From assembly GCA_001899635.1 (NCBI GenBank), contig MKVQ01000044.1, positions 186,001 to 250,000 of the forward strand: a stretch of 64,000 bases of DNA, written 5' to 3'. The stretch is from Myxococcales bacterium 68-20 (lineage in GTDB: Bacteria > Myxococcota_A > Polyangia > Polyangiales > Polyangiaceae). A program made the translations under genes and the position numbers. Below, piece by piece: positions 10,069 through 41,108 of the stretch. Under the pieces are notes generated by a model. It was not told the origin of the DNA, made no database searches, and saw nothing but the letters and a program-made list of their open reading frames with translations. The stretch's first letter is position 1; every line of letters starts with the position of its first letter.

Positions 10069-11267
10069 GGGCGCCTCCGGCTCGACGCGGTCCGATGGAG
10101 GATGAGGCCCTCGCCGACGATCCAGACGTCGTCGGGCCCGCTGCCCCAGATCGCGAGCAGGTTCGTCGGACTGTCTCCGCTGGGCAGCCCGAGCGTCGCT
10201 GGAGCCCAGGCGACTCCGTCGTAGTGGAGGATCGTCCCGCTGTCGCCGGCGGCCCAGATGTCGTTCGGTCCGCTGCCCCAGATCGCGTGGAGATCGCGTG
10301 TCGTGCCCGAGGGCACCACGGTCCATTTGGTGGCGCCGCGCGACGTGCGCCGGATCGTTCCGCGGCGGCCGACGGCCCAGACGTCGCTCGGTCCGCTCCC
10401 CCACACGGCCTCGAGGTCGTCGCGCGTGTTGCTGTTCTGCGCGAGCCATCGCGCCGGACCGTCGCCGCCGCCCGTCGCGGCGTCGAACGAGAAGGCCTGC
10501 CCGTCGTGACCGACCGCCCAGACGAGCTCGGCGCTGGCGGCCCACATGGCCCGGATGGCGGGGGCGCACGGGGCGTTCTCGCTGCATGCCGCGATCGGCG
10601 TCCAGGTAGCGGTGCCGCTGCCGTCATCGTCGAGTGTCCAGACGCTGCTCGACGGTCCGAACCGCCTCGAGGCCTCGCCTGCGATCCAGACCCGATCGCC
10701 CACGCTCTGTCCGGCCCAGAGCCGTCCGGAGGTCGCTTGTGCGGGCGTCCACGACGAGCCCGGTCGCGGATCGAAGGTGGCGCCGCCGTCGTGAAAGCCG
10801 TCCGAGTGCGCCGGGAACGAAGGTCCGAGGATCCAAACGTCCGTCTTGCTCGTCCCCCAGACGGCGACGTGAACGTCGGTCACCGTCTTCGAGTCGATCG
10901 CGACGAAGGTCGAGCCGTCGCCACGAAGGATCGTCCCGCGCGAGCCCACTGCCCAGACGTCGTCCGGACCGCTCCCCCAGATCGCGTTCAGCGCGACGAG
11001 ACGCGAGACGGGGAATGGCGTTGCGCAGAAGTCGACCGAGGTGCAGTCGAGCGCCGTCGCGCAACCGTTCGAGTCGGTGCACCCGTCCGCGCTCGCGTCG
11101 GCGGATGCGCTCGCGTCGCGTTGGGGTGGGAGTGGCTGCGTGTTCGGCGGGTCGTCGCTCGCGCCAGTAGGATCGCTCACGGCGCAGGCCGCGAAGGTCG
11201 CGGCGCTGCACGCGAGCCATGTCAGCGGCCGGAGCCGCGAGGCGCGAGCGAGACGAGCGGCGTTCAT
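10065..11267 (-). CDS. Propeller-type lipoprotein 1 (cluster A)
   Basis: A 400-residue lipoprotein. The signal peptide ends at lipobox FAAC (Cys 28), and an Ala/Ser/Asp linker with a short Cys cluster (CTDSNGC, DFCATPF) leads to at least five blades with the pattern IWGSGPDDVWAVGSRGTILR. The GTILHYDG and GTIRRTS ends of the blades resemble Asp-box/BNR strands. The ATG overlaps the stop codon of the Cys-rich gene as ATGA; the RBS is weak, so this gene is probably translated by coupling. The blade signature is more regular here than in the second propeller gene. Its counterpart in cluster B has 406 residues. Confidence 0.83.
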   Translation of the reverse strand: MNAARLARASRLRPLTWLACSAATFAACAVSDPTGASDDPPNTQPLPPQRDASASADASADGCTDSNGCATALDCTSVDFCATPFPVSRLVALNAIWGSGPDDVWAVGSRGTILRGDGSTFVAIDSKTVTDVHVAVWGTSKTDVWILGPSFPAHSDGFHDGGATFDPRPGSSWTPAQATSGRLWAGQSVGDRVWIAGEASRRFGPSSSVWTLDDDGSGTATWTPIAACSENAPCAPAIRAMWAASAELVWAVGHDGQAFSFDAATGGGDGPARWLAQNSNTRDDLEAVWGSGPSDVWAVGRRGTIRRTSRGATKWTVVPSGTTRDLHAIWGSGPNDIWAAGDSGTILHYDGVAWAPATLGLPSGDSPTNLLAIWGSGPDDVWIVGEGLILHRTASSRRRP

Positions 11268-12469
11268 TTGGTCTCGGCCCCGTTGCAGTCGCCCATCACG
11301 CATCGGCCGCCGACGCATGGCTGACCGCGACCGACGTCGCACATCGCGCCGCAGGCTCCGCAGTGGCGGGGATCCTTGTTCAGATCGGCCTCGCAGCCGT
11401 CGTCGTCGCGCCCGTTGCAGTCCGCGGTGCCCGGCAGACACTCCGACCCGCAGCGACCGTGCGTGCACACGGCCTTCGCGTTCGGAACGTAGGGGCAGAC
11501 GTATCCACACGCCCCGCAGTTGCGCGGGTCATTCTCCGTGTCGGCGCAGAACGCGTCGCCGAGCGGAGAACGTCCGGGGCAGAGCGTCTGCCCAGGCATG
11601 CACTGACACGCGGTCGCTCCGCCCACCGCAAAGCACTTCTGGCCGGGGTCGCATGCATTGCCGCATTTTCCGCAGTTGGCCGTGTCGTGGCGGAGGTCGA
11701 CCTCGCAGCCGTCGGGATCGAGCGCGAGGTTGCAGTCGGCCCAGAACTCGGATGCGTTCTGCACGCATCGGGGGGCCGTGCACTGGCCCTGAGCGCACCT
11801 GAAGGTCATGTGGGGGAAGAGCGCGCCAGCGTCCGTCGGCTGATGTTCGTCGCAGGCGAACCCGCAAGCGCCGCAGTTCGCATCGTCCGACGAGAGGTCG
11901 ACGCACGAGCCTCCGCAGTCGGTGGTGCCGGGAGGGCAGCCGCATTTGCCACCCCTGCATGCGACGCCGGCCGGACATCGAATCCCGCACGAGCCGCAGT
12001 TGTCGGGATCGTCGAGCACGCTCGACTCGCAGCCGTCGTCGGGGATGCCGTTGCAGTCGGCGTGGTGCTCGTTGCAGAAGGCTTGGCACTGGCCCGACGA
12101 GCAGGCCATGTGGACGTTGTAGGCGCCCGACGGTCTCCGGCATGCCGCGTTGCAGGCGCCGCAATGATCGACGTCGGCGCTCAGATCCGTTCCACACGCG
12201 TATGCCGGCAACGTCCCATCGAGAGCAGGGCACGTCGCCCATGGGGACGGACACGTGGTCGCGACGCAGAGCCCCGCCCCGCTGTCGGCGTCGTGCGTCG
12301 CCTCGCCGGCGTCGAGCGGAGCGAAGACCTGCTCCTCCGTCACGCCGGAGCCGATCGTCGCCGAGCTTCGCGTGCATGCGAACATCGCGAACGCAGCGAC
12401 GCCGCCGACGACGAGGGTGACGCTCAGACCTTTGCGGCCTGCGCCGCGGGCATCGGAGAGGGGCTCCAC
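11264..12469 (-). CDS. Six-repeat Cys-rich lipoprotein, first gene of the cluster A minus arm
   Basis: A 401-residue lipoprotein starting at GTG (GGAG 7 bases upstream), with lipobox MFAC (Cys 32). The mature part carries six copies of an NCGxCGxxC motif (HCGACNAAC, NCGSCGIRC, NCGACGFAC, NCGKCGNAC, NCGACGYVC, HCGACGAMC). Interleaved with these are three copies of an ADCNG-xx-DDGCE motif, which resembles a calcium-binding loop. About one residue in nine is Cys, so an extracellular, disulfide-bonded rod is likely. Such proteins are sometimes given an automatic 'tryptophan synthase alpha chain' label; nothing here supports that. It is the first gene of the minus-strand arm, opposite the sigma-factor arm. 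Confidence 0.85.
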   Translation of the reverse strand: MEPLSDARGAGRKGLSVTLVVGGVAAFAMFACTRSSATIGSGVTEEQVFAPLDAGEATHDADSGAGLCVATTCPSPWATCPALDGTLPAYACGTDLSADVDHCGACNAACRRPSGAYNVHMACSSGQCQAFCNEHHADCNGIPDDGCESSVLDDPDNCGSCGIRCPAGVACRGGKCGCPPGTTDCGGSCVDLSSDDANCGACGFACDEHQPTDAGALFPHMTFRCAQGQCTAPRCVQNASEFWADCNLALDPDGCEVDLRHDTANCGKCGNACDPGQKCFAVGGATACQCMPGQTLCPGRSPLGDAFCADTENDPRNCGACGYVCPYVPNAKAVCTHGRCGSECLPGTADCNGRDDDGCEADLNKDPRHCGACGAMCDVGRGQPCVGGRCVMGDCNGAETK

Positions 12470-12766: not shown

Positions 12767-13804
12767 ATGTCGCGCCGTTGGTCGAGGCGAAGCGTCTCCG
12801 TGCTCGCTCTCGGCGGATGTTTCGCGCTCGGGCACGGAAATGCCCGGGCGGACGAGGGCAGGTCACGGCTCGACCTCGACCTCGTCTTCGATGCGCCCCC
12901 GGAGTGTCCCTCGCGGGAGGAGGTCGAAGCGCAGCTTCGCGCGCGCGTGCCCGAGCGGTGGCTCTCCGGAGCGGACACGCGACGGTTCGCGATCCGCATC
13001 GAGCGCGAGAGTGACGGCGGCTATTCGGGCCAGCTCGACGTTCGAGTCTTCGGACGCGAGCCGAGCCTTCGCGAGATCCGGGCGCCCGCATGTCGAGCAG
13101 TGAGCACCTCACTGGTCGTCATCCTCGCGATCGCGCTCGACCCCGACGCGGAGGTCGAGCCCGACCATGGCCGCGAGACCGTGGTCGATCGTCCCGTTCC
13201 GCCGCCGGTATCGTCCTCGAGCGACGGTCGAGGAGCGACGACGCTTCGATCGCCTCCCGTGCCGCCACCCACGGCGTCGTGGACGTGGAGCTCGGGGGGC
13301 CGAGCGTCTCATCTCCGAATGCCCGCGCCCGCCTGGGGCGGCCGGGTCTTCGCCGAGGTCACACGATCGGCGCCGCATGCGTCGCTCGCCCCGTCGGCCC
13401 GGCTTTCGTGGGGATGGTCCGACTTCTCCCTCCAGCCCGAGCGCGCCGGAGAGGCCCTCTTTCGTCTGCGCACGGCGCGGGTGGAGGGATGCGCGCGCGT
13501 GACGCTCACGTCGTCCGTCGTCGTCTCGCCGTGCGCAGCGCTCGAGATTGGTACCCTCGCGGTGACCACGCCCGAGCTTCCTCGCGCGGGGCAGGCGAAG
13601 ACCCGGTGGACGGCGGGCGCGGCGATTGTCCGTGCAGGTTGGTCGCTCTTGCCGTGGCTGGCGATCGAGGTCGAGACAGGGCTTCTCGTGCCCTTCGAGC
13701 GCACGCGCTTCGGTCTCGTGGACCCGGCTCGCTTCGTCTACCGAGCGCCGAACGTCCTCTTCGAGGGGGGCCTGGGCGTCAGCCTGAGCGCTCGCATCGA
13801 ATGA
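12767..13804 (+). CDS. Secreted protein with barrel-like C terminus (cluster A)
   Basis: A 345-residue exported protein. A signal peptide (cut near NARA, residue 28) is followed by an N-terminal domain of about 115 residues containing APPECPSREEVEAQL and a later Cys (RAPACRAV), then a helix rich in Val/Ile (LVVILAIALDPDA), then a Pro/Ser linker (about 145-185). The last 150 residues alternate polar and aromatic residues, like outer-membrane strands, and end SLSARIE. The cluster B protein (338 residues) shares this plan, including APPMCPDATVV and VVVALAIDP at the same places. In both clusters this gene directly precedes an ECF sigma factor, so a role in sensing or in the envelope is possible. 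No known family was recognised. Confidence 0.7.
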   Translation: MSRRWSRRSVSVLALGGCFALGHGNARADEGRSRLDLDLVFDAPPECPSREEVEAQLRARVPERWLSGADTRRFAIRIERESDGGYSGQLDVRVFGREPSLREIRAPACRAVSTSLVVILAIALDPDAEVEPDHGRETVVDRPVPPPVSSSSDGRGATTLRSPPVPPPTASWTWSSGGRASHLRMPAPAWGGRVFAEVTRSAPHASLAPSARLSWGWSDFSLQPERAGEALFRLRTARVEGCARVTLTSSVVVSPCAALEIGTLAVTTPELPRAGQAKTRWTAGAAIVRAGWSLLPWLAIEVETGLLVPFERTRFGLVDPARFVYRAPNVLFEGGLGVSLSARIE

Positions 13805-13890: not shown

Positions 13891-14574
13891 ATGTCGGCTC
13901 AGCAGAGCATCGCGGGTGCCTTGCCCGGTCCGCTCGCCATGACGGACTGCGCCGTCGCGAGCGAGATGGACGCGCGTCGAAGGGCGCGGATCGAGAGGCT
14001 CGTTCGCGAGCATCAACCCTTCGTCTGGAGGAGCGTCCGGCGTCTCGGTGTTCGAGATGCCGACCTCGACGACGCTGTCCAGGAGGTGTTCCTCGCGGTG
14101 GCGAAGAACATCGACTCCGTCCAGCTCGAGCGCGAGCGCGGCTATCTGTTCCGTACGTGCGTCTATGTCGCGGCTCACGCGCGGCGGAGCGTGCAGCGAC
14201 GCCGTGAGGTGATCGACGAAGAGCGGATGAGCGCCGAGATCGACGTGCGCCCGACGCCGGAGCAGGGCGCGGCGACGTCCGAGGCCCGCGCTCGCCTCCA
14301 GGCCATCCTCGACGCAATGCCGGAGGACTTCCGAGCCGCGTTCGTTCTGTTCGAGCTCGAGCGCATGACGATGGCCGAGATCGCGGAGACGTTGGGGATC
14401 CCACCCGGCACGGTGGCCTCGCGCCTGCGCGCCGCGCGGCAGCTCTTCGTGAGCGCGGTTCGACCCTCGCCGGAGCCGTCTGAGTCGCCTGAGCCGCAGG
14501 GCGTTCAGCCCAGCGGAGCCGGACTGCGGAGACCGCACCCGGTCGAGCGTCGAGAAGAGGATGAAGAGCGATGA
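13891..14574 (+). CDS. ECF-type RNA polymerase sigma factor (cluster A)
   Basis: A 227-residue sigma-70 family factor of the extracytoplasmic-function class. Region 2 contains REHQPFVWRSVRRLG and DADLDDAVQEVFLAVAKN (the DDxVQEVF hallmark of the -10 recognition helix). Region 4 contains LEAMP-like AILDAMPEDFRAAFVLFELERM and the helix-turn-helix MAEIAETLGIPPGTVASRL. A charged tail of about 40 residues (PEPSESPEPQ) follows region 4. A second start, at 13939, is equally possible. The stop overlaps the next start as ATGA, pairing it with the membrane TPR-like protein. It probably directs transcription of the cluster A lipoprotein arm; this is inferred from the shared arrangement with cluster B. 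Confidence 0.88.
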   Translation: MSAQQSIAGALPGPLAMTDCAVASEMDARRRARIERLVREHQPFVWRSVRRLGVRDADLDDAVQEVFLAVAKNIDSVQLERERGYLFRTCVYVAAHARRSVQRRREVIDEERMSAEIDVRPTPEQGAATSEARARLQAILDAMPEDFRAAFVLFELERMTMAEIAETLGIPPGTVASRLRAARQLFVSAVRPSPEPSESPEPQGVQPSGAGLRRPHPVERREEDEER

Positions 14575-15329
14575 AGAGGCTACTCGATGAAGCCGACGCG
14601 CCGGACCTCGCGGAGCTGCTTCGCTCGGCGGAGCTCGACATCCCCGCTGCGCCCGAGGAGCGTCAGAACCGGATCATCGCTGCCGTCATCGCCGCCCCCA
14701 CGGTGACGGCGCTGCCCGCGGCGGCGAGCCGGCTCGACGTGATCCTCCGGGGCGCGAAGTGGGGCGCGCCGCTGCTCGGCATCGCGCTCACCGCAGTGAT
14801 CGCGACGTCGACGGGCAGCTCGACGGATCCTGCGGTCGCGCGCACCTCCACCACGACCGCGGAGGTGTCGCCGGTTCCGAGCGTGCACGAGCCGCTCACG
14901 GCGACCGCGGCGATCACGACGGTCGAGCAGGCCGTGCGCGTCGAAGACCTGCCGAGCGCCCGCGCGGAGGACAAGGCCGTCGCGCCTTCACGCATCGAAG
15001 GTGTTGCCGCTCGTGCGATGGCCCCGGCGATCGGCAGGGCTGCGCCGACGCCGGTGTCGAGCATCGACGTCGAGCTCGGGATGATCGACGCGGCTCGTGG
15101 TGCGCTCGCGGCGGGTCGTCCTGCCGAGACGCTCGCGCGGGTGGACGGCTATCGGAGCGCGTTCTCGGGTCCGCACTTCGCCGATGAGGCCGACGCGCTC
15201 GAGGTTCAAGCGCTCGCAGCGCTCGGGCGCATCGACGAGGCCCGCAGCAAGGCGGAGGTCTTCCTCGCCGCTCGCGGGCAGTCTCCAGCCGCGCGTCGTG
15301 TTCGCTCGAGCGTCGGCATCAAGGAGTGA
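14571..15329 (+). CDS. Single-pass membrane protein with TPR-like C terminus, candidate anti-sigma factor (cluster A)
   Basis: A 252-residue protein. Residues 1-60 are cytoplasmic and helical (LAELLRSAELDIPAAPEERQ); one membrane segment follows (about 63-82, PLLGIALTAVIATS), then a Thr/Val/Ala-rich linker, then about 80 residues with paired helices (IDAARGALAAGRPAETLARV, ALGRIDEARSKAEVFLAARG) like one to two TPR units. The position, directly downstream of and overlapping the sigma gene, is that of an anti-sigma factor. The usual zinc motif (HxxxCxxC) is absent: the protein has no Cys. The cluster B protein has the same topology and a matching C-terminal helix pair ending SPLTRRVEASCA against SPAARRVRSSVG here. 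Confidence 0.7.
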   Translation: MKRLLDEADAPDLAELLRSAELDIPAAPEERQNRIIAAVIAAPTVTALPAAASRLDVILRGAKWGAPLLGIALTAVIATSTGSSTDPAVARTSTTTAEVSPVPSVHEPLTATAAITTVEQAVRVEDLPSARAEDKAVAPSRIEGVAARAMAPAIGRAAPTPVSSIDVELGMIDAARGALAAGRPAETLARVDGYRSAFSGPHFADEADALEVQALAALGRIDEARSKAEVFLAARGQSPAARRVRSSVGIKE

Positions 15330-31827: not shown

Positions 31828-33594
31828 TCAATTTACGATCGTCTCGACGGCGTTGAGCGTGCGGAGCGCGCCGCCACCGGGATACCCGTAGCTCGCGTAT
31901 GGAGCCGTCCCCCACACCGTGACCGCGAACGCGCCGGCGCTCTCGATGACGTGCCGGCCGGCGCCGCATGTGCCCTTTCCGACCGTCTGAGGCTTCTTCT
32001 CCTTCGTGAGCCAGATGCGCGTGTACTCGTAGGCGCCGGATGCTCCGAGAGGCGTCCACTCCTCGAGCGCGCCGGCGCAGTCGAGGTTGACGGGTGCGAA
32101 CTCTTTGCCGCTTTGACGCGCACGCACGACGACGAGCTGCGAGTTCGCATGAGTCGTATCGACGAAGAAGACGTATTTGCCGAGGTATTGTTCGCTCGGA
32201 ACCACGGGCACGAACTCGGGATCGCCCTGGAACGCCTGGGCCTGGGCGAACTCTTCGCCCGTCATGTACGAGAAGACGGCGAACGGATGGTCGCTGTCCT
32301 GGCTCCTCACCACGAACGGTTCCTGCGACGTGAAGATGACGGACTGCCCGGCCGACAGTGACAAGGGAGCTTCCTTCGGCGCGCTCGGCTCGTAGGTGAG
32401 AACCGTTCCGTCGACTGCCGCGGTGATCCTGTAGAGGTAGTCCTCCGCGGCTTCCTTCGCGCGACGCGAGCGATAGGGTACGACGGCATACTCGCGTCCC
32501 CACGCCTTCACGGGAAAGAGGGCTGTCTGCGACGTGTCACCACAACACGTCATGCTCGTCGGGATCGCCATCGCCTGATGGCCTACGTAGACTCCGACCG
32601 GCTTGTTCGCTCCGATGCGCGATCCCGTCAGATCCTGTTCCTGGAAGAACTGGATCTGCTCGCCGCGCTTCAAGCGATACGTCTTCGCGCTGCCCTTCTC
32701 GGCGCTCTCGACGTCCATGCCTCCCTGGATGTGAACGCTCCCGATGAGCGTGACCTCCGTCCCATCTTCGGCGGCGACGACCTGGGTCGTGGGGTGGAGA
32801 CGCTCGGTATCGAAGTAGCGCATCTCCCACGGGCTCGTGACGACGTAGTCCGTCTTCCACGAAGCGACCGGCAGGAGCATCGTCGACGACGTCCCCTGGC
32901 TGGCGGATCCCGCGAACGGGTAGACGCTGTACGCGCTAACCGGCGCGGTCGTCTTGATCCGGAAGGTCGAGCCGCGCCGCGTCCCCGTGTGCGAGGTCAC
33001 TCTCTTCACGGCCGGGGTGACGTCGCCAGGACAGGCGATCGACATGAACCCGCTCGCCTGCTCGCTCAGGAAGAACACCGCTACCTCGCCGGGCAAAAGC
33101 TCCCCGGTGAAGGGCTCGTATGTGGTGGTGGTGCCGTCCGTGCGGATGATCCTGGTAGACGGCGTGACGTCGAGCGGATTGCCGTCGTATTCGGCCTCGA
33201 TCCGGGCGGGGATCTCCCACGTGTTCGCGAGCACGGCGGCGAAGCACGAGCCAATGGCCAGCGACTCGGGCGGTGGCGCGATCGGGATGAACTCGCAGCC
33301 CATCGTGGAGCTTGCGCCGACGGCGGCGTCGCACGCCGGAACACACTTTCCTTCGGCGCAGCCCTGATCGGGAGCGCATTCGGTGATCACCTTCGACTCG
33401 TCGCATCCGTCGACGACCGAGCGAAGGTTTCGGCCGCAGCGGAGCGTTCCTTCGCAGCTCGTCGGCGGAGGCGGATCGACGTCGGCGCCGGCGTCAGCGG
33501 TGAGGAAGGTGGGATCCTGCTTGAATCCATTGCGGTCGTCGCCGCAGGCGAAGATTGCACCGAGGACGAGAAAGGCACACGCGATACGTCTCAT
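31828..33594 (-). CDS. IgGFc-binding-domain lipoprotein (cluster B)
   Basis: A 588-residue lipoprotein, lipobox IFAC (Cys 17), last gene of cluster B. It matches the cluster A protein throughout: Cys-rich block with PDQGCAEGKCVPAC, LANTWEIPARIEAEYDGNPLDV, VSAYSVYPFAG, STMLLPVASWKTDYVV, TEVTLIGS, GSRIGANKPVGVYVGHQA, FVVRSQDSDHPFAVFSYMTGEEF, and a C-terminal WGTAPYASYGYPGGG. The ATG overlaps the RCC1-gene stop (ATGA). In cluster A the corresponding gap is 17 bases. The GHQAM stretch replaces GGNQC of cluster A. The surface ligand is unknown. Confidence 0.85.
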   Translation of the reverse strand: MRRIACAFLVLGAIFACGDDRNGFKQDPTFLTADAGADVDPPPPTSCEGTLRCGRNLRSVVDGCDESKVITECAPDQGCAEGKCVPACDAAVGASSTMGCEFIPIAPPPESLAIGSCFAAVLANTWEIPARIEAEYDGNPLDVTPSTRIIRTDGTTTTYEPFTGELLPGEVAVFFLSEQASGFMSIACPGDVTPAVKRVTSHTGTRRGSTFRIKTTAPVSAYSVYPFAGSASQGTSSTMLLPVASWKTDYVVTSPWEMRYFDTERLHPTTQVVAAEDGTEVTLIGSVHIQGGMDVESAEKGSAKTYRLKRGEQIQFFQEQDLTGSRIGANKPVGVYVGHQAMAIPTSMTCCGDTSQTALFPVKAWGREYAVVPYRSRRAKEAAEDYLYRITAAVDGTVLTYEPSAPKEAPLSLSAGQSVIFTSQEPFVVRSQDSDHPFAVFSYMTGEEFAQAQAFQGDPEFVPVVPSEQYLGKYVFFVDTTHANSQLVVVRARQSGKEFAPVNLDCAGALEEWTPLGASGAYEYTRIWLTKEKKPQTVGKGTCGAGRHVIESAGAFAVTVWGTAPYASYGYPGGGALRTLNAVETIVN

Positions 33595-34943
33595 CGGATC
33601 AGCTCCGCTTCGGGATGTTGCGCAGGGTCGACGGTGCCGCGACCTAGCTCTCCGCGCTGGTTCGCCCCCCAACACTTGACCGTACCGTCGACGAGCGAGA
33701 CGCAGGTCGAGGCGGCGGTCATCGCAAACGACACGACGCGATCGCCGGCGACGTGGGTCATGTCGAGCGGCTCGTCGGCGACGTCGAGCACGTTGGGCGC
33801 ATGGCCGAGCGCGCCGGACGTGTTGCGTCCCCAGCGGTAGAGATGGCCGCTCGAGAGGAGGAGCCCACCCTGCTCGACGTAGTTGGCCCACTTGTTGTCG
33901 ATGAAGGCCGCGCCAGCGGTGATGGCCACGTCGACCACGGTGGCGGCACTCGAGACGTAGAGCGCCCGAGTGGCCGGCAGCCATCGGGAGAGGATCCCGC
34001 TCCTGTCCAGGTAGCCGAACGCCCCGACCCGCACGACATCATGCAGCACCTGCGGCTCCGAGGAGATTGGTTGGGTCACGGAGGTCTCGCCAGCGGGGAA
34101 ATGGCCGAGGGACGCGAGGACGCCACCGTCCAGCAAGGCGACGATCGTGTCCTGCCCCGAGTCGGTGTCGTCACGCGGTGTGGTGCCGATGGCGAGCTCA
34201 CGGATCGGCGCCGTGAATCCGGTCATGACTTGGGGCGGGAACGTGTCCCCGTCCCCCGGAGCCGCGGCCAATCCGATCTGCGTGCTCCGCGCGCCCCAGC
34301 ACCAGAGCGCGCCGTCGCCGGCCGCGATCGCGCAGCCGGTCCTCGCGCCGAGCGCGACCGCCGAGGCCGGGGGGACGCCCTCCACACGCGTCGCCACCGG
34401 GAGGCGCGCATGGTCGGAAGGACGACCGAGCTGACCGAACTCGTTTCGGCCCCAGCAGTACACCGCGCCGTCGTTGGTGAGCGCGCACGTCCCGAGGTTC
34501 TTTCCGACGCTGATCTGCTTCGCGCCCGTGAGGCCGACGACCGGTGCGGGCGTCGCGCCCTCGACGACGGAGACGACGCGACCGCGACCGAGCGCGCCGT
34601 CCGCCTCCGCGGCGCCGCCCTCGGCTCGAGCGCGCGTATCTCGCCCCCAGCAGCGCACGGTGCCGTCCTTCAAGAGGCCGCAGACGTGCTCGCCGCCGTT
34701 TCCGCTCACGGCGACGTAACAAGGATCCTGCGCGCACGCGACCTCGAGACGCGACGCGGGCTCGACATCCGGACGCACGACGTCCGCTGCGCCTGCGTCT
34801 TTCTCCGGCTCGGGAGTCGAAACGCTCGCTTCGACTCCACCGTCGATCGCCGGAGTCGCCGGATCCGGGGACGACGACGAGCAAGCGAGCGGGACCGCGG
34901 AGACCAGAACCAAAGCCAACGGCGAGAGGCGGGCGAAGCTCAT
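33591..34943 (-). CDS. RCC1-repeat lipoprotein (cluster B)
   Basis: A 450-residue lipoprotein with lipobox PLAC (Cys 21) and an Asp/Glu/Ala linker. Repeated RCC1 blades carry DGTVRCWGRDTRA, DGAVYCWGRNEFGQLG, DGALWCWGARSTQ, GHLYRWGRNTSGALG and DGTVKCWGANQRGELGRG; the blade pattern is the same as in cluster A but the protein is 41 residues longer. GGGAGG stands a few bases before the ATG, and the ATG overlaps the stop of the preceding gene as ATGA. Probably a disulfide-stabilised seven-bladed propeller on the cell surface. Confidence 0.87.
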   Translation of the reverse strand: MSFARLSPLALVLVSAVPLACSSSSPDPATPAIDGGVEASVSTPEPEKDAGAADVVRPDVEPASRLEVACAQDPCYVAVSGNGGEHVCGLLKDGTVRCWGRDTRARAEGGAAEADGALGRGRVVSVVEGATPAPVVGLTGAKQISVGKNLGTCALTNDGAVYCWGRNEFGQLGRPSDHARLPVATRVEGVPPASAVALGARTGCAIAAGDGALWCWGARSTQIGLAAAPGDGDTFPPQVMTGFTAPIRELAIGTTPRDDTDSGQDTIVALLDGGVLASLGHFPAGETSVTQPISSEPQVLHDVVRVGAFGYLDRSGILSRWLPATRALYVSSAATVVDVAITAGAAFIDNKWANYVEQGGLLLSSGHLYRWGRNTSGALGHAPNVLDVADEPLDMTHVAGDRVVSFAMTAASTCVSLVDGTVKCWGANQRGELGRGTVDPAQHPEAELIR

Positions 34944-36205
34944 TGTTTTCCTCCCGTCACCTGGGCGGCCGTCGTCGCGGTGCGTCTGGCTGCGATCGCT
35001 CCTTGCGGTAGCCCCGTTCGCGTTACCGCCGTGCCGACCAGCCACACGTCGTCCGTGCCTCCCGCCCAGATCCCGCTCAGCGCGCTGATCATCGGACGAT
35101 CGGCCACCGCCGTCCGCGCGGGCACGAGCTCCGTTCCGTTCCAGCGGCAGAGGAGGCCGCCGGACGAGAACCAACCGACCGTAGCGCTCGCCGCCTGGCC
35201 CAGACGACTGCTGCATGCGGCGCCGCTCATCGGGTGCGTGTAGAGATCCGCACCCACCTGCCCACCGGACGTGACCGTGACGAGATGCGTCTTCAGGACG
35301 ACCGTACCCGGCGATTCTTCCTCGGCGGCGTCGTACCAAAGCTGTCGCGTCGCCCCCGGCGGCGTGCCGCGAAGCGACGACACTTCCAGCGTCGAATCGA
35401 GCGTCGTGATCGACCAATTCGCTCCGTCGTAGTGCGCGAGCGCCCCCTGGCCCTCCGAACCACACGGGCTCGAAGGACAGACCTTTCCGGCGACGAATAC
35501 GTCGTCGGCCCCGAAGCCCCAGACTCCGCGCCAGGCGTAGCCGTGCTCGTCCTCCGCTCCGAGGCTCGGACGGAGGTCCTCGACGACGGCGCCGCTCGCG
35601 TCCTCGCGAATGCGAAGGACCGTGTTCTCCGTCGCCACCCACAGCGCGTTGCCATCGGACGTTCCCCAGAGCGCCCTCGTGGCGATCACGGGCTCCTGTG
35701 TCGGGAGCTCGCGGAACGACGGCGCGCCGCCCGAACGGGCCGCGTAGTGCACGAAGAAGTGGTGGTTCTCGCTGTCCGTCGCTGCCGCCCAGACGTCGTC
35801 CTTCTTCCCTGCCCAGAGGTCGACGAAGGTGATGCTCGATGGGCTCGCGCCGTCGTACTCGTAGAGCTGCTCGATCGCGGCTCCGTTCCATCGGAGGATG
35901 GCGCCGCTCTGCTGCGGCAACATCCACGCCTCGTCGGCGCTCGACGCCGAGACCGCGATGAGCGGCTTCGAGCTCGGGACCGGCACGTAACAGAAGCCGT
36001 CGTCGCTGCATCCGTTCGGAGCCGCGGTGATCACGTCGTCCTTCTCCGATGCGTCGACGACGCCCGCCTCGAGCGGCCGGCTCGGATCGTCGACGGGCGG
36101 CAGCTGCGCATCGGCCTTCTCCTCTCCCGTCGCGCAAGCGACGGAGGCGCCGAGCGCGAGCATGTACGCGAGCACGACGCCCACGGTCACACGCGCGCGG
36201 CTCAC
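34940..36205 (-). CDS. Propeller-type lipoprotein 2 (cluster B)
   Basis: A 421-residue lipoprotein starting at GTG with the same GTGA stop/start overlap as its cluster A counterpart, and also beginning MSR. Lipobox SVAC (Cys 24), acidic linker, a Cys pair (CSDDGFCYVPVP against CSADGWCYTTLP in A), then blades with weaker signatures (DLWAGKKDDVWAA, VWGFGADDVFVAGKV, IWAGGTDDVWLVG). The blade motif is less regular here than in propeller 1. The pairing of two different propeller genes is conserved in both clusters, which suggests that the two proteins work together. Confidence 0.82.
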   Translation of the reverse strand: MSRARVTVGVVLAYMLALGASVACATGEEKADAQLPPVDDPSRPLEAGVVDASEKDDVITAAPNGCSDDGFCYVPVPSSKPLIAVSASSADEAWMLPQQSGAILRWNGAAIEQLYEYDGASPSSITFVDLWAGKKDDVWAAATDSENHHFFVHYAARSGGAPSFRELPTQEPVIATRALWGTSDGNALWVATENTVLRIREDASGAVVEDLRPSLGAEDEHGYAWRGVWGFGADDVFVAGKVCPSSPCGSEGQGALAHYDGANWSITTLDSTLEVSSLRGTPPGATRQLWYDAAEEESPGTVVLKTHLVTVTSGGQVGADLYTHPMSGAACSSRLGQAASATVGWFSSGGLLCRWNGTELVPARTAVADRPMISALSGIWAGGTDDVWLVGTAVTRTGLPQGAIAARRTATTAAQVTGGKQ

Positions 36206-37422
36206 GGCGCATCTCCTTCGAAGTGAAGCATGACTCCGTTGCCTCCGATCCAGACGTCTTTTGGAGAGCTCCCCCAGACGGCGAAGAGTCTCGGCTTCAC
36301 ATTCACTCCGTCGAGCGGAGTAGCGAGCCTGCTCCACACCTTGCCGTCGTAGTGCACGACCGTGGCGTCATCTCCGACGGCCCACACGTCGTCCGGCCCG
36401 AAGCCGTAGATGCCGCGCAGATCGGCGGTGACCGGGCTCGCCACCGTCTCGAACGCGCGCGAGGAGAGCTTCGCCGGCGTCATCCGGCGGAGCGTGCCGC
36501 CCTCACCGACGACCCAGACGACCTGCTCGTTGCCCCACACGCCGTAGAGGTTTCGCGACGTACGGCTGTCGTACTCCTCGACTTGCCACGATGCTCCGTC
36601 GCCGACGGGATCGCCCGCGTCGGAGGACGCACGATGGATGCGCACGACGCGAGCGCCAGGCCGGTCGTCCGAGCCCAGGCTCGTGGCCCACGCCTCATCG
36701 GGGCGGGTCATCGCGAGCGACCAGAGGCCGTCCGCACCCTCCGCGTCGAACATGGGGGTGGCCACTTCCTCAAGGTCGACGAGGTTGTCGTTCATCCACC
36801 CGCGGCAGGTCATGAGCGCCGGGAACGTCGTCCAGAAGTCGTTGTTGACCTGGCGTGCGAGGAGCACGTTCCCGTTCATGCCGGCGATGGCGTTGACGCT
36901 CGTGCCGTCGATGAACGTGGCCGAGCTCCACGCGGTGCCGCTCGGTCCGTTCCACCCCGTCGAGTGGTAGAGGATGGAGCCCGCACCGATCCACACGTCG
37001 CTCGGCCCGTCGAGCCAGACGGCCCGCATGGTGAACGGCGTCACCTCGTCCGTCAGCGGTGCCGCTTTCTCCCAGACCTTGCCGTCGTAGTGGACGACCG
37101 TCCGGTTCGTGCCGACAGCCCATACGTCGTTCGGGCCCGACCCCCGGATCGAGGTCACGTTGATCTGGGTATCGACCGGTGCGTTCACGACGCACAGACC
37201 CGATGCGCTGCAGGTGCCCGCATCGACGAGATCCGGCCGGCGGTGACCCGCATCCGCATCCGCCGCGTCGGCGGCGTCGGGCGTCTCCGACGAACCGGCC
37301 TCGAGGATCACCGGATCGAGCTCGTTCGAGGGCGCCGTGTTCTCGCTCGTCGCGCACGCAGCGGCGATGGCGGCCCCCGGAAAGACGAGCAGCGCGATGG
37401 CTCCGAGGTCACGCTTTCTCAC
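36202..37422 (-). CDS. Propeller-type lipoprotein 1 (cluster B)
   Basis: A 406-residue lipoprotein from GTG 37422, overlapping the stop of the Cys-rich gene as GTGA. Lipobox AAAC (Cys 23); an Asp/Ala-rich linker; then CSASGLCVVN and blades with GSGPNDVWAVGTNRTVVHYDG, LDGPSDVWIGAG, GFGPDDVWAVGDDATVVHYDG and VWGSSPKDVWIGGNG. The repeated VVHYDGKVW phrases match the Asp-box-like strand of cluster A (ILHYDGVAW). It is the counterpart of the 400-residue gene of cluster A. Confidence 0.83.
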   Translation of the reverse strand: MRKRDLGAIALLVFPGAAIAAACATSENTAPSNELDPVILEAGSSETPDAADAADADAGHRRPDLVDAGTCSASGLCVVNAPVDTQINVTSIRGSGPNDVWAVGTNRTVVHYDGKVWEKAAPLTDEVTPFTMRAVWLDGPSDVWIGAGSILYHSTGWNGPSGTAWSSATFIDGTSVNAIAGMNGNVLLARQVNNDFWTTFPALMTCRGWMNDNLVDLEEVATPMFDAEGADGLWSLAMTRPDEAWATSLGSDDRPGARVVRIHRASSDAGDPVGDGASWQVEEYDSRTSRNLYGVWGNEQVVWVVGEGGTLRRMTPAKLSSRAFETVASPVTADLRGIYGFGPDDVWAVGDDATVVHYDGKVWSRLATPLDGVNVKPRLFAVWGSSPKDVWIGGNGVMLHFEGDAP

Positions 37423-38609
37423 TGGACCACCCCACACTCCTTCATGAGGCACTGGCCGTCGACGCAAGCCTGTCCCGCGACGCCGTCACAGCGAACGCCG
37501 CAGGCTCCGCAGTTGAGCGGATCGTCGAGCATGGGCGTCTCGCATCCGTTGTCGATGTTGCCGTCGCAGTCTGCGAAGTTCGGGCTGCACGCGTACCCAC
37601 AGACGCCCTGGTCACACGTCGGTCTGCCATGCGCCGGATCGAACCCGAACGAGACGTTGCCGGTAACGGAGCTCCAGTCGCCGGGACACTTGAGCCCGCA
37701 CGCACCGCAGTTGTTGGGGTCCGAGTTGATCGACGAGAAGCAGACCGAACCGCACGCGCACAAACACCGGCCGATGATGCAGTCCTCGCCGGCCGCGCAC
37801 TTGTTCCCGCAGCCGCCGCAGTTCTCGGCGTCCCACATCGTGTTGGTCTCGCAGCCGTCGCCGTTCGGGATGCTGGCGTCGCCGTTGCAGTCCGCTTGGC
37901 CGGGAGCGCACGACACCTGGTTGCATGCGCCGGCTCGGCACGCTCGGACCATGTTCCACTCGGGCGGGAGCGGTGGATCGGTGGAGGGAGGACAGACGTT
38001 CCCGCACGCGCCGCAGTTCTCGTCTTCACGGTTCAGGTCGTGGCAGCTGCCGTCCGGACAGAACGTTCCGCCGCCGGGACAGCCGCACGCTCCCTCGCTA
38101 CAGAGGTCATCGCAGACATTGCCGCAGGCGCCGCAGTTGTTGATGTCCGTCGCTCCCGGACCGGCGATCTGCACTTCGCAGCCGTCGTCTGCGATTCCGT
38201 TGCAGTCTGCATGCGACGGAGCGCAGACGAGGCGGCAGGCGCCGGCGGTGCATCGCATCGCTCCCGCGAAGCGCTCGATGAAGGCATCGTCGTGCGGACA
38301 TCGAACCCCGCAGGCGCCGCAGTTGTCGTCGTCGGAGGTAAGGTCCACGCTGCACGGGAACGGATCGTTCGGGCACGTCGTGCGCCCGGCGGGGCATTCG
38401 TTCGAGGGACACATCCCGACGAATGCACCGGCCTCGGGCGACGTCGCCGGGCCGCCGTCTGGTGTCGGCGTGAACCTCGGAGGGTCATCGCAGAGCTCTT
38501 GACCGCAGTCGAAGCCGATCAGGAGGTCGTCATCGCCCCTGCATCCAGGCGTCGCGATCAAGAGCAGGACCGTGGCGGCCCCAGCAAGACGGGTGAGCGA
38601 CAGCTTCAT
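37419..38609 (-). CDS. Six-repeat Cys-rich lipoprotein (cluster B)
   Basis: A 396-residue lipoprotein with lipobox TPGC (Cys 23). It has six NCGxCGxxC units (for example NCGACGVRC, NCGACGNVC, NCGGCGNKC, NCGACGLKC) and three ADC(N/D)G...GCE units, the same numbers as the cluster A protein, with similar spacing. Overlaps the stop of the membrane TPR-like gene as ATGA, so in cluster B the lipoprotein genes are joined directly to the sigma-factor part. The repeats look disulfide-bonded; a stalk or matrix role is an inference. Confidence 0.85.
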   Translation of the reverse strand: MKLSLTRLAGAATVLLLIATPGCRGDDDLLIGFDCGQELCDDPPRFTPTPDGGPATSPEAGAFVGMCPSNECPAGRTTCPNDPFPCSVDLTSDDDNCGACGVRCPHDDAFIERFAGAMRCTAGACRLVCAPSHADCNGIADDGCEVQIAGPGATDINNCGACGNVCDDLCSEGACGCPGGGTFCPDGSCHDLNREDENCGACGNVCPPSTDPPLPPEWNMVRACRAGACNQVSCAPGQADCNGDASIPNGDGCETNTMWDAENCGGCGNKCAAGEDCIIGRCLCACGSVCFSSINSDPNNCGACGLKCPGDWSSVTGNVSFGFDPAHGRPTCDQGVCGYACSPNFADCDGNIDNGCETPMLDDPLNCGACGVRCDGVAGQACVDGQCLMKECGVVQ

Positions 38610-39379
38610 TCGGTTGCTTTCGTCGGGGAGTCGACGGCGCAGCTCGCCTCGACGCGGCGGGTGAGCGGGCTCTTCGGACGTCCATCGAGGAACGCTTTTG
38701 CTTCGCGTACCGCCTCGGCGCGGCGGCCCACGCCGCAGAGGACGACAATGCGCTCGGCGACGCGATCGTTCGCGAGCCACCCGTTCGGGAAGAGGCGCGC
38801 GTGCTCGTCGAGGAGCGCGAGCGCCTTGTCGGGGTTGCCGCCCTTCACCGCCGCTCGCGCGCTCGTCAGGAGCTGCGTCTCGCGTCCGAGCGTGTCGGCC
38901 GACGCTGCTCCCGGAGCCGCCGCCGACGACGAGGTCGACACGACGGGAGCCTTCTTCGCATCGTTGCCTTGCGAAGGCGACGCGGGCGCGACGCTCGGAA
39001 GCGACTCGACTGTGATCGACGGGGGAGCGGTGGTGCTCTCCGCTTCTCGATGCGGCTGCTCGTTCGTTTGCGCCGGAACGGGTGGGCCGCTCGTCGCCTT
39101 CGCGGAGGCCGGATCCGTCTTCGACAGCGTGTAGAGGACGGCCGCCCCGGCGGTCGCGAGGGCTAGGCACGACGCGCCGACCAGCAGCAGGCTCTTTCCG
39201 ACACCGCTCCCTCGAGCGGCGCTGAGCGACGGCGAGGGCGACGACGACCCAGCAGCAGCGTCCTGCGCAACGGACGTCTGGATCCTCGCGATGAGACGGT
39301 CGGCGTCGGCGTCCTCGAGCTCGTACTCGTCTGCGAACGCTGCGAGGAGCGACGGCTTGTTACCGGGGTCGATGCTCAC
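38606..39379 (-). CDS. Single-pass membrane protein with TPR-like C terminus, candidate anti-sigma factor (cluster B)
   Basis: A 257-residue protein from GTG 39379, overlapping the sigma-factor stop as GTGA. Cytoplasmic helical part (ADADRLIARIQTSVAQ), one membrane segment (about 63-83, LLLVGASCLALATAGAAVLYTL), a Ser/Thr/Pro/Ala linker, then TPR-like helices (LLTSARAAVKGGNPDKALALLDEHARLF, VLCGVGRRAEAVREAKAFLDGRPKS). There is no zinc-type HxxxCxxC motif. The counterpart is the 252-residue cluster A protein. The position makes it the likely regulator of its sigma factor, with the outer TPR part sensing the envelope or the lipoproteins. Confidence 0.7.
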   Translation of the reverse strand: MSIDPGNKPSLLAAFADEYELEDADADRLIARIQTSVAQDAAAGSSSPSPSLSAARGSGVGKSLLLVGASCLALATAGAAVLYTLSKTDPASAKATSGPPVPAQTNEQPHREAESTTAPPSITVESLPSVAPASPSQGNDAKKAPVVSTSSSAAAPGAASADTLGRETQLLTSARAAVKGGNPDKALALLDEHARLFPNGWLANDRVAERIVVLCGVGRRAEAVREAKAFLDGRPKSPLTRRVEASCAVDSPTKATE

Positions 39380-40044
39380 TTGTACCTCCAGCCATCGCGG
39401 GCGCGGCGGCGGGCCATGGCTGCCTCGACCTGCTCGCGGGCAAGACGTAGGCGACTCGTGGCGGTGCTCACGTTGATTCCGAGGATCTCGGCAATCTCAC
39501 TCACGGGCCTCTCCTCGAACTCAGCGAGGACGAGCACGGCTCGCCGCTCCGGTTCGAGGCCGGCGAGGATCTCTTCAAGGATGCGCGCGCCCTCGCTTGT
39601 CTCGGCCCTCTGGTCCGGTGCCACGCTGGATGGACTGGGGAGGACGTCGAGGTCGAAGCCATCCTCGGTCCGTGCGGTCCTTCGTTGATGCGACCGCCGG
39701 TGGTGCAGGACGACGTTGTAGAGGATGCTGAAGAGCCACGAGCGTTCGAAGCCCCGCGCGTCGTACGAGGCCGCCCGACGATGGGCCGTGAGGAACGTCT
39801 CCTGGACCGCGTCGTCAGCCTCGGTTGGCGTGAGACCAAGGCGACGTGCCGCCTTCCACACATACTTGACGTGCGAACGGTAGAGCTCCATGAGGCTGCT
39901 CGAGCCGGGGGTTGGTCGCTCGCGAAGAGCCACGCTTTGAATCCCGGAAGCTGGTGGCGGAGGGAACGTTAGCTCTCTTGCCTCCACTGCCTCCACGGAC
40001 GCAACCTGGTCCGTACTGCTCTCACCGCTCCAATGCAGAGGCAT
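39376..40044 (-). CDS. ECF-type RNA polymerase sigma factor (cluster B)
   Basis: A 222-residue ECF sigma factor. Region 2: SLMELYRSHVKYVWKAARRLG and EADDAVQETFLTAHRR. Region 4: AGLEPERRAVLVLAEFEERP then VSEIAEILGINVSTATSRL. A basic tail (RRRARDGWRYK) follows. About the first 45 residues are a less conserved extension, and a start near the LMELYRS Met is possible. It shares the second-gene position, the paired membrane gene and the downstream lipoprotein genes with the cluster A factor. It probably drives its own operon. Confidence 0.88.
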   Translation of the reverse strand: MPLHWSGESSTDQVASVEAVEARELTFPPPPASGIQSVALRERPTPGSSSLMELYRSHVKYVWKAARRLGLTPTEADDAVQETFLTAHRRAASYDARGFERSWLFSILYNVVLHHRRSHQRRTARTEDGFDLDVLPSPSSVAPDQRAETSEGARILEEILAGLEPERRAVLVLAEFEERPVSEIAEILGINVSTATSRLRLAREQVEAAMARRRARDGWRYK

Positions 40045-40091: not shown

Positions 40092-41108
40092 TCAGGGCAG
40101 GATGATTTCAGCGCCGAGGGTCAGCCTCGGGGAGACAGGAGCTGGAGAATGAAGCACAGCCGTCTCCGTCCTCGTCCCGAGCGCGAGCCGTGGAGCATCG
40201 ATCGGGAACAAGACGTCCGCGCGCGCGAAGAGCCCGAGCCATCGAGATGCCCGCGCCTCGAACCGACCTCCGAGGACAGGCGTCGCCCACAAAGCAGATG
40301 ACGTTCTTGGCTCACGGATCCCGTAACCCTCGACCCGGACGTACGTCGCTTCGATGTTCCCGCACGGTCCAAGCGCGAAGATTCCGATCGGCACCATATA
40401 GGCGGCGAATGCGCCACCCTCGATCATGTCAATCGCAGCTCCCACGGTCCGGTCGAACCGCGGCCTCTGACCAAAGGCCAGCGTCCCCAGCATCCCGACA
40501 CGAAAGCGGTCGATGCGTATGCCCGCAGAAGCAACGAGGCCGGGGCTCGCCTGCGGTAGTGTCCCCCAGACGACCGAGCCGCCGACGCCGAGCTCGATCG
40601 CCATGCTCGATTCGGCCTTTTCGGACGGCCTCGTGGGCGGAGAGCGAGGCGCGCTCTTCGGAGGCGCGATGTCTGCCGCGACCGAAGAGGAAGGCTGGAC
40701 GGGCTCCGGCGGAGGCGACTCCGGTTGCGCCGGCTCCTCGATGCTGCTTCCACCCTTCGTCGGATCGATCGCGAGCGCAACGACGACCGCAAAGGCTTCG
40801 GAAAGCATGGTGCAGTTGGCGGCATCGAGCTCTCTCGTATCGGCGACGTCTCCCGTACGCACGGTCAGCACGAGGTGGAATCGTCCGTCGTCCGTCCTGT
40901 CGATCTTCCCGTGCGCGACAGCGCTGCTCGGAGCGGTCAGCGGTCCGTGGAGAATCCTCTCGATCTGGCGACGAACGACCGTCGCGTCCGGGCACATCGG
41001 AGGTGCCTCCCACTCGAGCTCCAGCGGCAGCGGTGTGGCCTCTGCTCTCGCGAACCGAGTCATGCTCACGATCGTGCCGATCGCGAGCGCCGACCACGCG
41101 TTCCTCAC
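40092..41108 (-). CDS. Secreted protein with barrel-like C terminus (cluster B)
   Basis: A 338-residue exported protein from GTG 41108, first gene of cluster B. Signal peptide (cut near residue 22), N-terminal domain with WEAPPMCPDATVVRRQIERI and a second Cys (AANCTMLSEAF) followed by VVVALAIDP, a Pro/Ser linker (about 125-170), then a strand-rich C terminus ending RLTLGAEIILP, like outer-membrane strands. It is clearly related in layout to the 345-residue cluster A protein, although sequence conservation outside the N-terminal domain looks low. A sensor or envelope role linked to the sigma factor is an inference. Confidence 0.7.
   Translation of the reverse strand: MRNAWSALAIGTIVSMTRFARAEATPLPLELEWEAPPMCPDATVVRRQIERILHGPLTAPSSAVAHGKIDRTDDGRFHLVLTVRTGDVADTRELDAANCTMLSEAFAVVVALAIDPTKGGSSIEEPAQPESPPPEPVQPSSSVAADIAPPKSAPRSPPTRPSEKAESSMAIELGVGGSVVWGTLPQASPGLVASAGIRIDRFRVGMLGTLAFGQRPRFDRTVGAAIDMIEGGAFAAYMVPIGIFALGPCGNIEATYVRVEGYGIREPRTSSALWATPVLGGRFEARASRWLGLFARADVLFPIDAPRLALGTRTETAVLHSPAPVSPRLTLGAEIILP

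Follow-up and report, generated by a model that had tools for sequence, protein, structure and literature searches.

A probable anti-σ factor family with a two-helix cytoplasmic end and a BamD-like TPR end, encoded with ECF σ factors in Polyangiales

In the 64,000-nt stretch of DNA analyzed here (the window; positions 186,001 to 250,000 of contig MKVQ01000044.1, from Myxococcales bacterium 68-20), two genes encoding extracytoplasmic function (ECF) σ factors each overlap a gene for a single-pass membrane protein by 4 nt, as the original prediction from the DNA letters had stated. On the minus strand, the σ factor gene at 39376–40044 and the membrane protein gene at 38606–39379 share GTGA (39379–39376); on the plus strand, the σ factor gene at 13891–14574 and the membrane protein gene at 14571–15329 share ATGA (14571–14574); the pair list of the original prediction gives the membrane protein gene first. 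Because gene linkage, covariation at the dual interface used by known anti-σ factors, and three σ/membrane-protein fusions coincide, the membrane protein is very probably the cognate anti-σ factor of the overlapping σ factor, and we hold this with good confidence as the best explanation of the whole. Computation supports the cognate association and the dual interface through covariation, fusions, and gene order; inhibition of the σ factor, sensing at the outer membrane, the release step, and the regulon are what we infer beyond these.

The 279 family members aligned here share a consensus over their first ~38 residues that consists of two amphipathic stretches, followed by an Ala/Gly/Pro-rich stretch and then by the transmembrane (TM) segment; it reads roughly M-x-D-P-x(3)-L-x-P-E-L-R-x-L-L-x-A-A-R, a Pro (90% conserved), and x-x-R-(V/L)-x-A-R-L. 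AlphaFold2 (AF2) was run, from a three-row alignment, for the first of the two window membrane proteins (38606–39379) only; it predicted helices at aa 5–18 and 23–43 (block means of 44–65 over aa 1–50) and a weak helix at aa 70–83. The helical cytoplasmic part proposed in the original prediction is thus borne out by these helices and by the consensus. In the second membrane protein (14571–15329), the strongest hydropathy window lies elsewhere (aa 35–53, 1.83; the next at aa 65–83, 1.33), so the position of its TM segment rests on the family alignment. The zinc motif of classical anti-σ factors (HxxxCxxC), also predicted to be missing, was found within the first 130 residues of none of the 279 members, and the family therefore lacks the feature that defines zinc anti-σ factors (ZAS), i.e., this motif in the cytoplasmic domain. 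Neither window membrane protein matched a Pfam family above its cut-off or any NCBIfam family. Across 39 members, 23 Pfam families were matched, and neither these nor the 25 NCBIfam families with the most matches included an anti-σ model. A motif resembling V-D-D-L-P-S-A lies between the TM segment and the tetratricopeptide repeat (TPR) end of the first membrane protein (aa about 122–130) and also occurs in the second; its strict form is present in 87 of the 279 members, as compared to 22 in shuffled linkers, and it is possibly a protease or docking site.

Linkage to σ factor genes extends across the family. A search of the own genome with the first membrane protein, in which 150 of 431 candidates were scored and E was limited to 1, gave at least 127 matches; 88 of these sit 300–1008 bp behind one of 150 scored Sigma70_r2 matches, with 100 further σ candidates unscored. 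One hundred own-genome regions surrounding 112 of the 127 matches (15 of 115 planned regions, holding 15 matches, were left out) yielded 110 full-length ECF/membrane-protein pairs, 96 of them with an overlap of exactly 4 nt; four of 114 σ-like open reading frames (ORFs) fell below the score limit and were dropped. Among relatives, with identical pairs counted once, 169 distinct pairs were found, including 144 with the exact 4-nt overlap and 168 within 20 nt. One hundred relatives' regions, taken from 113 places chosen by a match to the TPR protein (13 were left out), all contained a σ match. Because regions were picked by matches to the TPR protein, the pair counts tell how often the TPR gene has a σ factor gene and not the reverse. 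In three relatives, a single reading frame encodes a whole σ factor followed by the N-terminus, TM segment, and TPR end of the membrane protein; one is from the same order (L300:2716–4201, with no Met at the σ/membrane-protein junction) and two are from the same class (L387:795–2064, and L375 on the minus strand). No such fusion was found among own-genome ORFs. That such fusions occur in three genomes speaks for physical pairing of the two proteins, though an assembly slip is possible for any single one. A further irregular frame (L044:1065–1926), which was left out of the fusion count, contains σ region 2, a Pro-rich stretch, and a TPR part, and is missing region 4; it represents either real remodelling or an assembly error.

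Covariation between the two proteins was assessed by mean-field direct coupling analysis (DCA) of 279 pairs (165 σ columns, 39 N-terminal columns, effective sequence number of 262). The top inter-protein score was 2.43 and the top-20 mean was 1.49, as compared to a maximum of no more than 1.27 and top-20 means of 0.83 ± 0.03 in 20 random re-pairings; re-pairing among σ sequence neighbours in blocks of 4, 8, and 20 (ten each) gave maxima of no more than 1.53, 1.44, and 1.21. When the C-terminal part of the membrane protein was included in a joint model, the σ–N-terminus maximum (2.02) exceeded that between σ and the C-terminal part (1.26). Five of the top ten couplings join helix 2 to the σ2 domain and five join helix 1 to σ4, and these two classes hold 17 of the top 20 and 28 of the top 40 couplings. 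In separate runs on the 110 own pairs and the 169 relatives' pairs, they hold 14 and 18 of the top 20, respectively; the two lists share six of the top 20 (0.06 expected) and nine of the top 100 (1.55 expected), all nine falling in the two classes once the hinge Pro is assigned to helix 2, while control lists for σ and the C-terminal part share one of the top 20 (0.02 expected) and three of the top 100 (0.50 expected). At σ position 32 and N-terminal position 29, an acidic residue is paired with Arg or Lys in at least 201 of the 279 pairs (DR 110, ER 76, DK 15); further couplings join σ 15 with N-terminal 27 (DR in 52) and σ 157 with 14 (hydrophobic). The corresponding residues of the minus-strand window pair are D77–R28 (32–29), V206–L12 (157–14), and K60–A26 (15–27), the last of which shows that individual pairs can lack a given contact type. 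These couplings support an arrangement in which helix 1 meets σ4 and helix 2 meets σ2, the dual interface of known anti-σ factors; according to excerpts of a large survey (PMC7406223), these contacts, the first helix on σ4 and the last helix on σ2 (regions 2.1/2.2), are made by factors of class I and class II alike.

Several results weigh against the anti-σ reading. AF2 confidence for the two N-terminal helices is low to middling (44–65). When 216 loci were analysed pairwise, the TPR end and σ2, which lie on opposite sides of the membrane, reached a score of 2.12, with block shuffles giving as much as 2.10 (score scales differ between DCA runs with different column numbers), and top-20 means exceeded those of block shuffles by 8.5 standard deviations (sd) for TPR–σ2 and by 6.7 sd for TPR–σ4; the co-inheritance signal is thus not fully removed from the covariation. 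Models trained on relatives' pairs placed the right partner first for 10, 8, and 13 of the 110 own pairs when based on the 39 N-terminal columns and for 2, 8, and 6 when based on the whole TPR end (60, 200, and all position pairs, respectively), and for 2–4 when based on 39 random TPR columns; models trained on own pairs and tested on the 169 relatives' pairs gave 3 (N-terminus) versus 4 (TPR) first places and median ranks of 29 versus 48. The N-terminus is at best modestly better than the TPR end in partner choice. Since N-terminal and whole-TPR models performed similarly on the own set, cross-set partner prediction mostly reflects co-inheritance and was set aside as proof of contact. Because shared inheritance partly remains, the weight of the covariation rests on the location and recurrence of the couplings and not on their size alone.

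The same results bear on whether the membrane protein touches the σ factor at all. It might be an envelope TPR protein of the BamD/YbgF type that shares the operon without σ contact, which would fit its BamD-like TPR end and the partly inherited covariation seen between σ and TPR as well; this is very improbable, as the best couplings fall at the binding sites of anti-σ helices and recur in two non-overlapping sets, the N-terminal couplings are stronger than the C-terminal ones when both are modelled jointly, and the protein is fused to a σ factor in three genomes. Contact might also serve to stabilize the σ factor or to recruit it to the membrane. Such a role would fit, as inhibition is a proposal here, but the coupled σ surfaces are similar to the ones that, in the known complexes covered by excerpts of PMC7406223, bind RNA polymerase and the −35 element, and we consider it very improbable. 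A closer contest concerns the type of domain. A shortened class I anti-σ domain, as opposed to an independent two-helix type, would account for the contact order, which is that of class I (first helix on σ4, last helix on σ2), and the couplings point to the class I dual interface; we nevertheless regard this origin as rather unlikely. The class I fold (a three-helix bundle plus a fourth helix, ~100 aa) was not recovered, as about 38 conserved residues with two predicted helices precede the low-complexity linker, as compared to a class I mean of 101 ± 33 residues (PMC7406223, in part), and no class I family was among the matches listed for the 39 members. The predicted helices and their couplings instead agree with the class II pattern of CnrY, i.e., helix 1 on σ4 and helix 2 on σ2. 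Judged by linkage and covariation, the protein also has the general attributes of an anti-σ factor, being encoded with its σ factor and apparently contacting σ2 and σ4. The original prediction of a distinct anti-σ family is strongly supported by the helix 1–σ4 and helix 2–σ2 couplings, by the fusions, and by the absence of an anti-σ model from the library families listed for 39 members.

The extracytoplasmic TPR-like end named in the original prediction was recovered with high AF2 confidence in the first membrane protein (block means of 93–97 over aa 161–240 and 85 at aa 241–250), as five helices forming about 2.5 repeats. Pfam gave only a sub-threshold TPR_14 match for this protein (20 bits, cut-off 23.5) and a weak TPR_4 match for the second, in which the presence of a TPR end rests on homology to the first. 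In a family-profile search (hmmsearch), BamD was the nearest match of the TPR end (9pxg_D, E 6.6e-5), and 17 of the 39 members matched TIGR03302 with E no higher than 1; the domain thus combines a TPR fold with a BamD sequence profile. In a fold search, the TPR end scored about equally well against many TPR proteins (including YbgF, LpoP, BamD, and DdvA), so that fold alone names no TPR partner.

A candidate for that partner is encoded directly upstream of the σ factor gene. Homologues of this secreted protein were found as 107 ORFs in the 100 own regions, and among own pairs with room for it the gene lies on the same strand directly upstream of the σ factor gene in 86 of 101 and in another arrangement in four; it is upstream in 64 of 71 relatives' pairs with room, and 95 of 100 relatives' regions contain a match. 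The constant extracytoplasmic partner of the cassette is therefore this upstream secreted protein and not the lipoproteins discussed below. AF2 was fairly confident for its N-domain only (block means of 67–87 over aa 31–110), and the fold of that domain is nearest to the TolB N-terminal domain (Z 8.2–8.4, rmsd 2.7–3.3, 91–94 residues), a likeness barely above that to ribosome hibernation factors (Z 7.7); a Z near 8 can mean no more than a common arrangement. No convincing Pfam or NCBIfam match was found in 19 members (best E 0.061 and 0.0062), and the 40092–41108 protein itself matched neither library. Two Cys residues within the TolB-like domain (C39 and C99 of the 40092–41108 protein) are conserved in all 19 aligned members. 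In the C-terminal half, intrachain covariation yielded one strong Cys–Cys pair and a single strand-like diagonal that exceeded the null (6 versus a null 99% of 5), covariation over the whole protein being swamped by the signal-peptide region; both the N-domain Cys pair and the coupled C-terminal Cys pair are possible disulfides. Chains ending in F, W, or Y make up 77 of 258 secreted partners, as compared to 6 of 279 anti-σ and 0 of 279 σ proteins; neither window copy has such an end. The C-terminal part is beta-rich and perhaps an outer-membrane beta-barrel; the barrel was not confirmed by AF2.

In 216 σ/anti-σ/secreted-partner triples, top-20 means against random re-pairing were raised for N-domain–TPR (1.04 versus 0.82 ± 0.03), slightly raised for C-terminal part–TPR (0.89 versus 0.76 ± 0.03), and not raised for N-domain–anti-σ domain (1.01 versus 0.97 ± 0.03). 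Thirteen of the top 30 N-domain–TPR couplings fall in the region of the last N-domain helix (5.8 expected), which we take as a lead only. Docking of the N-domain on the TPR end was rejected as a conclusion from covariation, since its excess over block shuffles (4.3 sd) is not above the level reached by the non-contact pair TPR–σ2 (8.5 sd). This result weighs against the working model set out below, as do the pairs with room in which its gene was not found (11 of 101 own and 7 of 71 relatives' pairs), the 5 of 100 relatives' regions without a match, and the failure to find a shared motif resembling an ECF −35/−10 promoter upstream of 90 own secreted-partner genes.

Downstream of the minus-strand pair, the membrane protein gene overlaps a gene for a Cys-rich lipoprotein (37419–38609) by ATGA (38606–38609), which in turn overlaps a BNR-type gene (36202–37422) by GTGA (37419–37422); at the second window pair, the Cys-rich gene is upstream and divergent. 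Runs of BNR/RCC1-type genes adjoin both cassettes (33591–37422 and 8794–11510). The genome contains at least 140 (merged) MXAN_6577-like Cys-rich genes, of which 111 lie directly behind a match to the TPR anti-σ protein and 12 more behind a σ match; put the other way, such a gene directly follows 111 of the 127 own matches at 0–286 bp (about 0.01 expected each). Cys-rich genes are present in 90 and BNR types in 86 of the 100 own regions. The 111 of 127 own matches and the ATGA overlap speak for an anti-σ factor whose TPR part senses the assembly of the neighbouring lipoproteins, as the original prediction had suggested. This suggestion did not hold up: where the locus extends 850 bp or more beyond the pair, a Cys-rich gene lies behind 97 of 108 own pairs but only 2 of 145 relatives' pairs, although the TPR protein is conserved there, and the partner that stays constant is the secreted protein. 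One of the two relatives' cases is from a Labilithrix metagenome-assembled genome (L176) and the other is a weak 31-bit match; many relatives' loci extend only about 0.9–1.5 kb beyond the pair, and own copies served to build the search model, so the search would overlook lipoprotein genes that are more distant or diverged. We therefore reject lipoprotein sensing as a general mechanism and consider this reading improbable. As it is nearly confined to own loci, the lineage-specific Cys-rich lipoprotein gene belongs to this lineage's expansion and is better seen as an output than as a general input.

Under the anti-σ reading, the ~40-residue cytoplasmic end would form two amphipathic helices, with helix 1 on σ4 and helix 2, nearer the membrane, on σ2 (regions 2.1/2.2); by analogy with solved complexes, this would mask the surfaces required to bind RNA polymerase and the −35 element and park the σ factor at the inner membrane. 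The BamD-like TPR domain would act as the extracytoplasmic input module, with the secreted protein from the upstream gene as its likeliest partner; this protein may span from the outer membrane into the periplasm via its TolB-like domain, and an altered state of it could be relayed to the TPR domain. Loss or cutting of the anti-σ factor would then release the σ factor, and the freed σ factor would drive its own operon, in this lineage including the Cys-rich and BNR lipoproteins. Sensing through an envelope partner is plausible. We advance more tentatively, as a possibility that may well fail, a three-part trans-envelope cassette (an outer-membrane sensor with a TolB-like periplasmic domain, the TPR-bearing two-helix anti-σ factor, and the ECF σ factor) that is conserved across the taxonomic order and that would have multiplied in this lineage to well over 100 separately insulated σ/anti-σ channels per cell, most with their own Cys-rich/BNR surface lipoproteins, and in which the N-domain of the outer-membrane protein would dock on the TPR end.

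With an E limit of 1e-3, a profile built from 39 members and applied to 150 of 552 candidates gave at least 144 matches in the 11.9-Mb genome, a few of them fragments of the same gene. Applied to eight further genomes from the order, all large (6.9–13.4 Mb; hand-chosen, with no more than 150 candidates scored in each), the same profile gave at least 7, 12, 19, 13, 12, 9, 18, and 9 matches, the genome with seven belonging to the same genus as the window organism. The profile was made from own-genome copies and therefore favours the own genome; despite this bias, the genome appears to be about tenfold richer in the family than these relatives. The family is present in at least 93 of 115 genomes of the order and in at least 89 of 188 genomes of the phylum (up to 23 and 14 candidates scored per genome, respectively), many matches outside the class being short or weak; the phylum-level genomes gave seven distinct σ/membrane-protein pairs, six of them with the exact 4-nt overlap. 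The cassette also occurs in Labilithrix (Polyangiales, Myxococcota), to which one named relative belongs. The features of the two window loci are collected in Table 1.

Table 1. Features of the two window loci, with the evidence for each assignment.
Feature	Position	Strand	Evidence
ECF σ factor, regions 2 and 4	39376..40044	-	Pfam Sigma70_r2 E 7.6e-14, Sigma70_r4_2 E 4.7e-13; TIGR02937 E 1.2e-24
Second ECF σ factor	13891..14574	+	Pfam Sigma70_r2 E 7.5e-10, r4_2 E 9e-14
Probable cognate membrane-bound anti-σ factor (two-helix N-terminus, one TM segment, Pro/Ala-rich linker, BamD-like TPR)	38606..39379	-	4-nt overlap; covariation with σ in 279 pairs; AF2
Putative two-helix anti-σ domain, aa 1-43	39251..39379	-	279-member consensus; AF2 helices; couplings
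Predicted TM segment, aa 64-82	39134..39190	-	Best 19-residue hydropathy window, 2.22 (hydropathy estimate)
Extracytoplasmic TPR domain, aa 160-250	38630..38902	-	AF2 block means; BamD by family profile, E 6.6e-5
Second membrane protein, same family	14571..15329	+	ATGA overlap; family alignment; family-profile match E 3.1e-50 (itself a row of the profile)
Upstream partner, secreted (TolB-like N-domain at aa 25-117, then a Pro-rich linker and a possible outer-membrane beta-barrel at the C-terminus)	40092..41108	-	107 homologous ORFs in 100 own regions
Second copy of upstream secreted partner	12767..13804	+	One of two seeds of its search model
Cys-rich lipoprotein, MXAN_6577-like	37419..38609	-	NF041328 71.4 bits (below cut-off of 100); lipobox-like ATPGC read in sequence
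BNR-type lipoprotein	36202..37422	-	PSII_BNR 24.7 bits (below cut-off of 27); GTGA overlap with Cys-rich gene
Cys-rich lipoprotein, divergent from second cassette	11264..12469	-	NF041328 E 3.9e-47

In cell-surface signalling of the FecA-FecR-FecI type, an ECF σ factor and a membrane anti-σ factor act with an outer-membrane protein that has a periplasmic N-terminal domain. The cassette described here likewise combines an ECF σ factor, a membrane anti-σ factor, and a secreted, possibly outer-membrane, protein in one locus; unlike in FecA, the N-domain of the secreted partner is nearest to TolB, and no FecR family was among the Pfam matches of the 39 members. Among anti-σ factors, CnrY (class II) also uses two helices, the first on σ4 and the second on σ2 (PMC7406223, in part), a likeness in contact pattern; the family described here differs from it in having a BamD-like TPR outside, a secreted-protein gene beside it, and strong amplification in one lineage. 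Class I domains (RseA, RskA, ChrR, RsiW) share the dual interface, with the first helix on σ4 and the last on σ2 in the excerpts of PMC7406223, but here there is no sign of a three-helix bundle and the length is well under half of the class I mean; the zinc motif separates the family from the zinc-bearing class I members, many other class I members also lacking it according to the same excerpts. DdvA, the transmembrane anti-σ factor of DdvS from Myxococcus xanthus (PDB 8rot), is likewise myxobacterial and transmembrane and is among the TPR folds matched (Z 9.8, rmsd 3.9, 98 residues, tied with many unrelated TPR proteins); it was not among the profile matches up to E 10, and the 8rot chain has 897 residues as compared to about 255 here. 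BamD and YbgF resemble the TPR end by profile, but here the TPR is TM-anchored, comprises about 2.5 repeats, and is encoded with a σ factor. ECF42 also combines an ECF σ factor with TPRs, which in the part of PMC8999054 drawn on form a C-terminal extension of the σ factor, whereas here they belong to a separate membrane protein; Pfam gave no TPR match in either window σ protein. A membrane anti-σ factor of an ECF σ factor is thus known, while the minimal zinc-free two-helix domain joined to a BamD-like TPR, the conserved cassette, and the more than 100 copies in one genome appear to be new as a variant; our literature search found no description of a TPR anti-σ family of Polyangia, the full ECF classification, which may describe the partner family, and likewise the DdvA literature lying outside its coverage.

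According to excerpts of PMC7406223, only about one third of ECF σ factors have a class I anti-σ partner nearby, and the part of PMC3696898 used here lists 109 σ factors, 6 annotated anti-σ factor proteins, and 347 "sigma factor-related" proteins for one Sorangium genome. An anti-σ domain of ~40 residues is easily overlooked, and the TPR-tailed family could supply partners for many apparently orphan ECF σ factors in such genomes. More than 100 co-evolved pairs in one cytoplasm would represent a natural experiment on σ/anti-σ specificity, for which the covariation already points out candidate specificity residues, and the family may be a source of short orthogonal anti-σ parts.

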